A stretch of DNA of 57,739 nucleotides from Candidatus Zixiibacteriota bacterium (GTDB lineage: Bacteria; Zixibacteria; MSB-5A5; WJJR01): the NCBI GenBank assembly GCA_040752595.1, contig JBFMGX010000045.1, positions 1-57,739 of the forward strand, given 5' to 3'. Of this stretch, positions 49,465-54,229 are shown piece by piece. The notes beneath the pieces were generated by a model, which was not told the origin of the DNA, ran no database searches, and worked only from the letters and a program-made list of their open reading frames with translations. Numbering within the stretch: position 1 is the first letter of the stretch; each line of letters opens with the position of its first letter. Position numbers and translations under genes: made by a program.

Positions 49465-50664
49465 ATGAATATCCGTCGAGCCATCGTCATCGTCCTCGAT
49501 GGGTGCGGCATCGGTGATGCGCCGGATGCGACAGCATTCGGCGATGAGGGCTCGAATACGCTGGCGAACACCGCGCGTGCGGTCGGCGGACTCGATTGTC
49601 CGAATCTGGCGCGATTGGGACTGGGACACCTGCACGACATCGCCGGTGTGCCGCCAGTGCCGTCACCGATCGGCTCATACGGGAGAATGAAACAACGCGC
49701 CGCCGGCAAGGACTCGACCTCCGGACATTGGGAGTTGATGGGGGTCACGCTGACGGAACCGTTCCCACTGTATCCGCACGGATTTGGGCGCCAGATCCTC
49801 GACCCATTTGTCGCGCGTACCGGGCGCGGGGTGATCGGCAACTGCCCCGCCTCCGGCACGCAGATCATCGCCGATCTCGGTGAGCGTCACTGCCGGACCG
49901 GCGAGTGGATCGTTTACACATCCGCGGATTCGGTGTTCCAGATCGCGGCGCATGAGGATGTCGTGCCGATCGAACAACTGTACTCGGCCTGCCGCATCGC
50001 GCGCGAGATTCTCCGGGGGCCGGATGCCGTTGGACGCGTGATCGCCCGACCGTTCGTCGGCACGCCCGGCGCGTTTGTACGTACACACAGACGCCGCGAT
50101 TTCTCACTGGAGCCGCCGGAGCCCACGGTTCTCGACCGGTTGATGTCCGCGGGAATCCCCACCGTGGGAATCGGCAAAATCGACGATCTCTTCGCCGGAC
50201 GCGGATTATCCGTGAAGATCCATACCCATGATAATATCGATGGTATGGAACAGACGATCACGGCCATGGCGGAGGTCCCGGACGGTCTGATCTTCGTCAA
50301 CCTGGTCGAGTTCGACATGGTCTGGGGGCACCGCAACGACCCGCGGGGATTCGCCGACGGGTTGGCGCAGTTCGACCGCCAGTTGGGTGTGCTCTTGCCG
50401 CGATTGACCCCGGCCGACGTGTTGTTTCTCGTCGCCGACCATGGCGTCGACCCGACGACCCCGTCCACCGACCACTCCCGCGAGATGATTCCACTTCTGG
50501 CCTATGGTCCATCGCTGCGGGCCGGTGTGAATCTCGGCGTGCGGGAGACCTTTGCCGACCTGGCGGTGACCTTGCTCGATATATTCCCGCGGGCGGCGAC
50601 CGCACCGGTGACGGGGGCGTCGAGTTTCTGGGGGGAGTTGGTCAACGTGAATCCTCCCATGTGA
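49465..50664 (+). CDS. deoB: Phosphopentomutase DeoB
   Basis: A 399-aa alkaline-phosphatase-superfamily enzyme interconverting (deoxy)ribose 1- and 5-phosphate. Metal-site motifs: [14 protein letters not shown] with Asp12 at the N-terminus, the phospho-acceptor region [13 protein letters not shown] (Thr in DSTSGHWE), and [17 protein letters not shown] at the C-terminus. Also [15 protein letters not shown]-type and [13 protein letters not shown] segments. Family length is normal. It is immediately followed by the Cdd-DeoC fusion, so the two make consecutive steps possible. Confidence 0.96.
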
Positions 50665-50686
50665 GGTGCGGATTCAGGATTGGCGA

Positions 50687-50708
50687 ACAAGGGGCTTAAG
50701 CCCCTTGT
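50687..50708. repeat. 22-bp perfect palindrome, copy 2
   Basis: Identical to the palindrome at 116-137 (ACAAGGGGCTT plus its reverse complement), again followed by TT. It lies in the 81-bp gap between deoB and the Cdd-DeoC gene, overlapping the open frame upstream of the chosen start, where it would encode KGLKPL. Confidence 0.8.
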
Positions 50709-50745
50709 TTACCCTCACATCCATGTGATTGATCGATACGTGGGA

Positions 50746-51849
50746 ATGAGCGAGACAGTGACACCGACCGATTCCGAGCGACGCGCGCTCGACTTGGCCC
50801 GCGCCGCGCAGCAACATGCGCATGCGCCCTTCTCGGGGAAGCATGTCGGCGCGGCCGTGATCACACAAGACGGGGCGATATTCGCCGGGTGCAACGTTGA
50901 GAATGGTACCCACGAACTCGACATTTGCGCCGAGCACAATGCCATCACGACCGCCGTGGCGGCCGGTCACACCGAGTTCGTCACGGTCGTTGTGATCGCG
51001 CCCGATGAGCGGTTCTGGCCGCCGTGTGCCTCGTGCCGAGAGGTGATCATGGCGTTTGGCCCCGATCCCCTCGTGCTGATGTCGACCCGCGACGGACGTT
51101 CATGCCGCGCCCGGCTGTCGCAGTTGCCGACTCGGCCATTTGCAGACGAGAAGGACGGAATCACGCGCGAAGCCCCGATCCCGGTCCCACGTCTGACAGC
51201 GAAGGAGTTGGCGCGACATATCGATCACACCAATCTGGCGCCTGACGTCACAACGGTCCAGATCGTAACCTTGTGCGCCGAAGCACGTCAGCACGGATTC
51301 GCTGCCGTCTGTGTCAACCCCGCACATGTCGCGACCGCCGCCGCCGAGCTAAGGGCTACGAGTGTGGCCGTCTGCGGCGTTGTCGGTTTTCCCACCGGCG
51401 CCCACGAGACCCAGATCAAGGTCGCGGAGGCGGTGTCATCTGTCCGCAACGGCGCCCGCGAGATCGACATGGTCGCCCATGCGGGTTGGTTGAAAGACGG
51501 GGATGTCCGTCGCTACGTCGAGGACATCCGTGCGGTGCGTTACGCCATCGGGGACGTTCTGATCCTCAAGGTGATCATCGAAGCCAGTCTCCTTGAACCG
51601 GCACAAATCGAACGAGCCGCGCTGCTCGCCGTTGAAGGCGGCGCGAACTTCGTGAAGACCTCCACCGGCGTCTACGGCCGGGCGCGATTGGAAGATGTCC
51701 GTCTGCTGCGTCGCATCCTCCCGCCCCACATCAAAATCAAAGCCGCCGGCGGCATCCGCACGTACGAGACCGCCTGCGCCTTCATCGCCGCCGGAGCGGA
51801 GCGGATCGGGACGTCGTGCTCGATGTCAATCGTCCGCTCAGTGTCGTGA
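50746..51849 (+). CDS. Cytidine deaminase / deoxyribose-phosphate aldolase fusion protein
   Basis: One uninterrupted 367-aa frame. Residues 8-125 are a cytidine deaminase: zinc ligands Cys61, Cys94, Cys97 and the proton-shuttling Glu63 in CAE and PCASCRE. After a linker (125-147), residues 148-367 are deoxyribose-phosphate aldolase: IDHTNLAPD, VCGVVGFPTGAH, EIDMV (Asp241), LKVIIE (Lys275), FVKTSTG with Schiff-base Lys304, and IKAAGGIRT (Lys332). Cdd deaminates (deoxy)cytidine; DeoC cleaves deoxyribose 5-phosphate to acetaldehyde and glyceraldehyde 3-phosphate. DeoB next door makes the aldolase substrate. Start at ATG 50746, after the palindrome; the ribosome binding site is poor. Confidence 0.92.
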   Translation: MSETVTPTDSERRALDLARAAQQHAHAPFSGKHVGAAVITQDGAIFAGCNVENGTHELDICAEHNAITTAVAAGHTEFVTVVVIAPDERFWPPCASCREVIMAFGPDPLVLMSTRDGRSCRARLSQLPTRPFADEKDGITREAPIPVPRLTAKELARHIDHTNLAPDVTTVQIVTLCAEARQHGFAAVCVNPAHVATAAAELRATSVAVCGVVGFPTGAHETQIKVAEAVSSVRNGAREIDMVAHAGWLKDGDVRRYVEDIRAVRYAIGDVLILKVIIEASLLEPAQIERAALLAVEGGANFVKTSTGVYGRARLEDVRLLRRILPPHIKIKAAGGIRTYETACAFIAAGAERIGTSCSMSIVRSVS

Positions 51850-51940: not shown

Positions 51941-54031
51941 CTACAGCCGCAACCGTCGCGGTCTGTGCCGTCGCCAGCGATCGTGGATGGGGCAGGTGTC
52001 GAGCGTGTCGGCGGGATTGGTGAAGACTTCCTCGCGGTTGGCGGGGCAGTCCTCGACCGCGCGTTTGTTGGAGTCCTGGCAGACCATGATCGTGTAAACG
52101 CCCTCGGGCGCGACGAAGTCACCCGCGGGCAGATCGCGGGTGGCGTACTTCATCACTTCGGTCCAGATCGGCAGTGCCGTGGCGGCGCCGGTGCCTGTGT
52201 GATACCCACCGATCGGCGTTTTCAGATCATACCCCACCCAGACGCCGCAGGTGATCTGCGGCGTGAAGCCGACGAACCAGTTGTCCATATACTCGTTCGA
52301 CGTGCCGGTCTTCCCGGCCGCGGAACGCCAGAATCCACGCGAACGGGCGCTGGCGGCGGTGCCGGAGTCGATGACCGACTTCATCGTGTGCAAGACGACA
52401 TAGGCGGTCTGCGCCGACAGAACCTCTTCGCGCCGGGGCGCGCTGCGTTCCTCGATCACGCGGCCGAATTGATCGGTGATGCGACGAATCTGCGTCGGGT
52501 CGGTGCGGATGCCGCCGTTGGGAAAGACCGAATACGCCTCCACCATGTCAGAGAGCGTCACCTCGGAGCTGCCGATCGCCAGCGACGGCACCGGGAGCAA
52601 CGGCGTGGAGATCCCCATCTTCTCGGCGTAGAAGACCGCGCGCTGGACATCGATCTTTTGCAGGAGACGGACAAAGACGAGGTTGCGCGACTCGCGCAGC
52701 CCGTAGTGAATCGTCACCGGCCCCTCGAACTTGTTGTCGAAGTTCCCGGGGTTGTAATCCGGCGCCCCGGGGATCTTGATCAGCACCGGCGCATCGAGGA
52801 TCGTGTCCGAGGGCCTGAATCCCGCCTCGACGGCGGCGGTCAGGATGAACGGCTTGAACGCCGACCCCGGTTGGCGCAGCGCCTGGGTGACCCGGTTGAA
52901 CTGGCTTTCGCCGTAATCGTACCCGCCGACCATGGCGAGAATCGCGCCGGTCTCGTTGTCCATGACCATGATCGCCGCCTGCATCTTCTTGCGCACGCGT
53001 ACACGTCGGCCGGACGTGGAATCGTAGACCAGATAAGTATAAACGGGATCGTTGGGACCATGACGCGCCGCGGCGACACCGCGCAGTGAGTCCAGGCGGT
53101 ATTGAACCGTCCGCTCCGCCACGCGTTGGATGCCGGGATCGAAGGTGGTGTAGATCGACCACCCCTCGGTGTACAGCGCATCTTCGCCGTAGGTCCTCTC
53201 GATGTAGCGACGGATCTCCTCGGCGAAGTAATCGCCGATCTGGGTCGGCGCCTCGGCGGTATGCAGCTCGATCGGCAGCGCGCTCAGGGAGTCGCACGCG
53301 GTCTGGTCGAGGTCGCCGACTGTGGCCAACGAGCGGAGGACGACATTGCGACGCGCCCGCGCGCGTTCCCGATTGCGCAATGGTGAGTAGGCCGACGGTG
53401 CCGGCAAGAGACCGACCAGGACGGCTCCCTCCAGCAGCGACAGTTCCTCGGTGTGTTTGCCGAAATAGGTCTGCGCCGCCGCCTCGATGCCATAGGCCCC
53501 CGAGCCGTAGTAGCTGTGGTTGAGGTACATCTCGAGGATCTCATCCTTGGCATAGACGCGCTCGAGCTTGATCGCCACCATCCACTCTTTGATCTTCCGC
53601 TCGATGGTCCGCTCCGGCGTGAGGAAGAGCTGACGCGCCAACTGCTGCGTGATGGTTGAGCCCCCCTGCGGGCGCCGACCGATCAGAGGACGGATGACGA
53701 CGCCGCGGAGGATCGCAGTCCAGCGCACGCCCCAGTGATCGTAGAACTCGCGGTCCTCCGTGGCGATGAGCGCGCGCACGACGTGCGGCGGCAGTTTGCT
53801 CAATGGCGTGAGGACGCGACGCTCGGTGTAGAACTCATAGAAGGGTTGGTCATTGCGATCAAACAGCCGCGTCGACAGGCGGGGTTTGAAGCTGTAGACC
53901 TGCTCGATGGACGGGAGTTCTTGGCCGTACCGCCATAGAGTGGCAACCACCCAGGCGCTCAGGGCCGCGCCGATCGGCACGACAACCAGCAGGGTTATGA
54001 GAATGAGTCGTCGGGAACTGCTCTTGGCCAT
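51941..54031 (-). CDS. Class A penicillin-binding protein, PBP1A-like
   Basis: A 696-aa bifunctional peptidoglycan synthase. A membrane anchor is at about 8-32. The glycosyltransferase-51 domain (60-235) has ATEDREFYDHWGV with the catalytic Glu and GGSTITQQLARQLFL. The transpeptidase domain has Ser390-x-x-Lys393 (SAFK), the SRN motif (RESRNLVF) and KTGTS at 574-578. The C-terminal ~50 residues are basic with several Cys. The ATG at 54031 follows a weak AGGTCCG; a TTG one codon earlier is also in frame. It faces the deo genes convergently and diverges from tyrS. Confidence 0.93.
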   Translation of the reverse strand: MAKSSSRRLILITLLVVVPIGAALSAWVVATLWRYGQELPSIEQVYSFKPRLSTRLFDRNDQPFYEFYTERRVLTPLSKLPPHVVRALIATEDREFYDHWGVRWTAILRGVVIRPLIGRRPQGGSTITQQLARQLFLTPERTIERKIKEWMVAIKLERVYAKDEILEMYLNHSYYGSGAYGIEAAAQTYFGKHTEELSLLEGAVLVGLLPAPSAYSPLRNRERARARRNVVLRSLATVGDLDQTACDSLSALPIELHTAEAPTQIGDYFAEEIRRYIERTYGEDALYTEGWSIYTTFDPGIQRVAERTVQYRLDSLRGVAAARHGPNDPVYTYLVYDSTSGRRVRVRKKMQAAIMVMDNETGAILAMVGGYDYGESQFNRVTQALRQPGSAFKPFILTAAVEAGFRPSDTILDAPVLIKIPGAPDYNPGNFDNKFEGPVTIHYGLRESRNLVFVRLLQKIDVQRAVFYAEKMGISTPLLPVPSLAIGSSEVTLSDMVEAYSVFPNGGIRTDPTQIRRITDQFGRVIEERSAPRREEVLSAQTAYVVLHTMKSVIDSGTAASARSRGFWRSAAGKTGTSNEYMDNWFVGFTPQITCGVWVGYDLKTPIGGYHTGTGAATALPIWTEVMKYATRDLPAGDFVAPEGVYTIMVCQDSNKRAVEDCPANREEVFTNPADTLDTCPIHDRWRRHRPRRLRL

Positions 54032-54229
54032 CAATGTGTCGGACCTGCGCCACGCACAGTGAATCGTTGGATGACATTGCCCGCCCCAGCAGAGCAGACC
54101 GTGATTGGTCGGGCGGGATTTGGGTTGGCTTGCATGCTGGTTTCTACGCGTAATGCAGCCGCACGATCACCGCCGGCCGCAAATGGCTCAACCTTGTCGC
54201 CGTGATCATCAGGGTCAAGGAAAAAGCCC

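Follow-up and report, generated by a model that had tools for sequence, protein, structure and literature searches.

Sugar-phosphate microcompartments are known to carry the deoxyribose-phosphate aldolase DeoC (gene deoC) as cargo. An aldolase-isomerase fusion, RpiB-DeoC, has been described from the microcompartment loci of Marinimicrobia (PMC4207490). In Escherichia coli deoxyribose-phosphate aldolase (DERA), the C-terminal Tyr participates in catalysis (PMC8403123). For a related cytidine deaminase (CDA), the reported substrate contacts are Tyr24, Asn42, Glu44, Ala46, and Tyr48, and substitution of Leu for Arg56 in CDA_F14 lowers kcat/KM by approximately 50-fold, while CDA_E5, a natural enzyme in the same study, carries His at the equivalent position (PMC9897663). 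Here, we have analyzed a window of 57,739 nucleotides from a Candidatus Zixiibacteriota bacterium (contig JBFMGX010000045.1), in which a cytidine deaminase (Cdd) and DeoC share one reading frame. As in RpiB-DeoC, the aldolase forms the C-terminal half and lies in-frame with an enzyme of sugar or nucleoside metabolism, whereas the partner there is an isomerase; a link to microcompartments was rejected, as a search of the window's own genome for the shell gene PF00936 gave no match. RpiB-DeoC proteins were also seen in other members of the phylum (G010, G046, and G057) and, outside Marinimicrobia, at Woeseiaceae loci (L024, L028, L049, and others), including those of many gammaproteobacterial metagenome-assembled genomes.

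The fused gene is a single uninterrupted frame of 367 aa on the plus strand, running from ATG at 50746 to TGA ending at 51849 (Table 1), and one coding phase, judged by GC content by codon position, is maintained across the linker. Codons 127-155 contain no in-frame ATG, GTG, or TTG, so that a separate start for DeoC would necessarily be CTG at 51193 or TTG at 51208; both border the DeoC domain and might serve as weak starts, which would count against the single-protein reading. Directly upstream lies deoB, as the initial annotation had noted. The palindrome in the intervening gap, AACAAGGGGCTTAAGCCCCTTGTT, occurs again in the window at 115-138 and is a dispersed REP-like element, with 99 sites in the genome (two or fewer mismatches in a 22-bp core) and none for the reversed control.

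Table 1. Features of the fused gene and its surroundings, in window coordinates
Feature	Coordinates	Strand	Details
deoB phosphopentomutase, upstream neighbour	49465..50664	+	PRK05362, 491.6 bits; neighbour conserved in relatives
24-bp palindrome between deoB and fused gene	50686..50709	+	one of 99 dispersed genome copies
Cytidine-deaminase domain, tetramer type	50746..51141	+	residues 1-132; Zn ligands C61, C94, C97; catalytic E63; C-terminal F132
Linker	51142..51192	+	residues 133-149, ADEKDGITREAPIPVPR, ~17 aa / ~51 nt; stop-free and ATG/GTG/TTG-free in frame
DeoC domain, short type, with stop	51193..51849	+	residues 150-367; D241, Schiff-base K304, K332
mrcA-like penicillin-binding protein, convergent neighbour, synteny anchor	51941..54034	-	

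The proposal that two enzymes reside in this frame was borne out by the open frame together with family matches to both halves. PF00383 (residues 11-111) and PF01791 (159-358) both exceeded the Pfam gathering thresholds, and among NCBIfam models the second half matched DeoC TIGR00126 at 154-362 with 227.5 bits (cut-off 117.3), while the first half passed PRK05578 (90.3 bits, cut-off 74) and missed TIGR01354 (91.4 bits, cut-off 113.65). Sequence matches in the PDB reached 1.8e-55 for DeoC and 5.6e-23 for CDA, and each of the matches listed covers one half, none spanning both. In the host genome, a draft of 2.94 Mb in 50 contigs with an estimated completeness of 100%, searches with each half returned the fused gene as the sole cdd and the sole deoC match. 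The earlier statement that all catalytic residues are present holds for those named, namely C61, E63, C94, C97, D241, K304, and K332, but it passes over two departures: His64 replaces the usual Arg in the deaminase half, and the C-terminal Tyr of the aldolase is absent. The DeoC half is a full TIGR00126 domain with its Asp/Lys/Lys set and differs from stand-alone members in the added N-terminal Cdd and in its tail (...MSIVRSVS), which lacks the E. coli-type Tyr; that residue is not required by the TIGR00126 model and is missing from the DeoC proteins of the same family of organisms as well.

The deaminase half is more divergent. In common with tetrameric Cdd proteins (TIGR01354/PRK05578), it retains N50/E52, the C-terminal Phe, and the CAE...PCxxC residues for zinc binding and catalysis, but it is fused to DeoC and departs from them in the conserved aromatic contacts and in the Arg following the catalytic Glu (a common, not strictly universal feature). 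With the fused-protein residue numbers offset by 8 from those of Bacillus subtilis CDA, K32 and H56 occupy the positions of F24 and Y48, and H64 that of R56 (CAEH instead of CAER). The Tyr at the Y48-equivalent position is lost in all five family members, at the F24-equivalent position the family has Lys or Arg and a sister family Lys or Met, and His at the R56-equivalent position was found only in the window protein among those compared. All four same-family CDAs tested likewise fell below the TIGR01354 cut-off, which the CDA of a sister-family member (G007) passed. Because Arg has given way to His beside the catalytic Glu and the score is below that cut-off, the deaminase half may be weakened or altered. 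These features, and the activity loss reported for R56L, could indicate that the N-terminal half has ceased to be a true cytidine deaminase, through either a family-wide shift of substrate or species-level decay into an appendage of DeoC; such a change would be compatible with a fusion of operon genes. Considering that none of the zinc ligands, the catalytic Glu, N50/E52, or the C-terminal Phe has been lost, that the PRK05578 cut-off is passed, and that CDA_E5 naturally has the same His, we regard it as somewhat unlikely, and deaminase activity is plausible, although not assured.

Comparison with relatives places the fusion in a conserved neighbourhood. The order rplQ-deoB-cdd-deoC, with convergent mrcA beside deoC, recurs in two same-genus genomes (G001 and G002) and one of the same family (G004), and rpoA, tyrS, and prfB are also at the locus in G002 and G004, matching the window. 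The nearest sequences of both halves belong to family members (55-59% for cdd and 53-63% for deoC). Among the 109 matching genomes of 132 examined in the phylum, only in that of the window does a single uninterrupted frame hold both halves. In G001 and G002, as well as in G003 and G004 of the same family, cdd and deoC are separate genes; in two further family members, G005 and G006, no cdd match was obtained and deoB directly abuts deoC. The cdd stop codon precedes the DeoC domain by 668 nt in G002, 464 nt in G001, and 480 nt in G004, compared to a linker of approximately 51 nt in the window, and the deoC genes of the sister species possess an extra N-terminus of 63-75 aa, for which a Pfam search gave no match. 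This extension (L002:1468-2328, L122:4278-5222, and L121:3530-4369) contains an IITPxAxD motif, which we take to resemble the N-terminus of EutQ. In 11 of 21 relatives, deoC lies in the same reading frame as cdd, but chance together with relatedness could produce such a count, and it is not usable as evidence.

It had been suggested beforehand that separate genes in close relatives would refute a fusion. Such a gene structure does exist in these four genomes, yet the fusion still stands, because the frame is open here and the joint is shorter by approximately 400-600 bp than that of the sister species. Since same-genus species have the two genes apart, the event is probably local and recent, and it was seen in one species. 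We put at roughly 0.78 the probability that the gene arose by recent in-frame fusion of adjacent genes of a deoB-cdd-deoC operon and that its product is most likely two independent enzymes in a 1:1 ratio. Judging from the arrangement in the sister species, the event would have removed the stop codon of cdd together with the spacer and the greater part of the N-terminal extension of deoC, leaving a short linker between the deaminase and the beginning of the aldolase barrel. The deaminase half would accept cytidine, deoxycytidine, or a related nucleoside, and the aldolase half would cleave deoxyribose-5-phosphate supplied by DeoB. We infer that the frame is expressed as a single protein, that it has both activities, and that its oligomers assemble, the expected form being a CDA tetramer with four DeoC domains attached.

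Alternatively, the draft assembly might contain a local deletion or indel that joins two genes which the organism keeps apart, given that the fusion appears in a single draft genome of 50 contigs and that the cdd stop and the deoC ATG are 275-473 bp apart in same-genus relatives. However, synteny on both flanks agrees with the sister species and so rules out the misjoining of distant sequence, the coding phase is unbroken across the joint, and a random deletion would be expected to preserve the frame in only about one-third of cases. An assembly artefact is unlikely, but a local deletion of this kind is the chief risk to the fusion reading.

The search for the two-domain architecture across genomes, proposed in the initial annotation, was run and yielded no second intact Cdd-DeoC fusion in the 132 genomes of the phylum, in approximately 800 genomes sampled from two other phyla, or among 80 named loci, which were the best from a scan of 84,980 species genomes. 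The sample from other phyla comprised 400 genomes from the phylum to which an Anaerolineae locus belongs and 398 from that of a Miniphocaeibacter locus, and rare fusions may be missed there because the cut-offs were strict (1e-40 and 1e-55) and at most five candidates were scored per genome. In plasmid records, the best match across both halves was a pair of adjacent annotated genes, and viral contigs scanned with the fused protein gave no match. Apparent further fusions in G016, G030, and G024, with lengths of 416 and 430 aa, were rejected because each consists of two frames split by one stop, and large Chloroflexota frames upstream of DeoC were rejected because they contain no Cdd. The fusion is undescribed in the literature searched, a body that leaves out most subscription journals. 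That Cdd-DeoC is not a standard family was confirmed, and it is an ordinary operon fusion, apparently unreported before.

Other fusions among the same three operon genes, with other partner pairs and other joints, are present in the phylum. A DeoB-DeoC protein of 624 aa (G061, L139:1058-2938) joins two consecutive pathway steps in one chain, and a DeoB-Cdd protein of 512 aa (G018, L140:1148-2683, minus strand) is nearly linker-less; both halves of each exceed their family cut-offs. Such repeated pairwise fusion of deoB, cdd, and deoC might reflect selection for co-assembly, with the window protein being a novel two-activity enzyme that tethers a deaminase of altered substrate range to DeoC, an idea that we consider quite improbable. 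Since fusion among neighbours of the deo cluster recurs, its occurrence alone implies no new pathway.

Conversion of deoxycytidine into a substrate of the aldolase requires phosphorolysis or hydrolysis of deoxyuridine. The two activities are indeed non-consecutive steps, as first described, but the accompanying idea of a compact deoxycytidine module with only a phosphorylase missing was unsupported: a purine nucleoside phosphorylase is present, and searches of the genome with PF00591, PF01048, PF01156, and PF06865 revealed no pyrimidine nucleoside phosphorylase or hydrolase. PF00591 matched TrpD only, within a trp operon; PF01048 matched the purine enzyme (PRK08202, 369.4 bits) and a nucleosidase-like lipoprotein; and PF01156 and PF06865 had zero matches in this genome scored as 100% complete. 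Deoxyuridine is therefore left without a visible route to deoxyribose-1-phosphate. A working module for deoxycytidine breakdown, in which the deaminase and the aldolase are coupled or linked by channelling, would fit the role of both enzymes in deoxynucleoside catabolism and the adjoining deoB, yet the missing families, the non-consecutive steps, and the separate enzymes of relatives make it extremely doubtful, and no channelling is expected because the two halves have no common intermediate. It is more likely that DeoB and DeoC serve purine deoxynucleosides via purine nucleoside phosphorylase, and the deaminase likely functions in pyrimidine salvage, apart from the aldolase.

The fused gene looks like a real, local operon fusion; it is of modest interest and seems to bring no new pathway, and the picture of nucleoside catabolism is unchanged by it. 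If made and active, the protein would be a natural single-chain DERA fusion and a two-enzyme architecture absent from the libraries, papers, and genomes searched. That deoB, cdd, and deoC have fused in three different pairs within a single phylum offers a small natural experiment on how neighbouring operon genes merge without a common intermediate.
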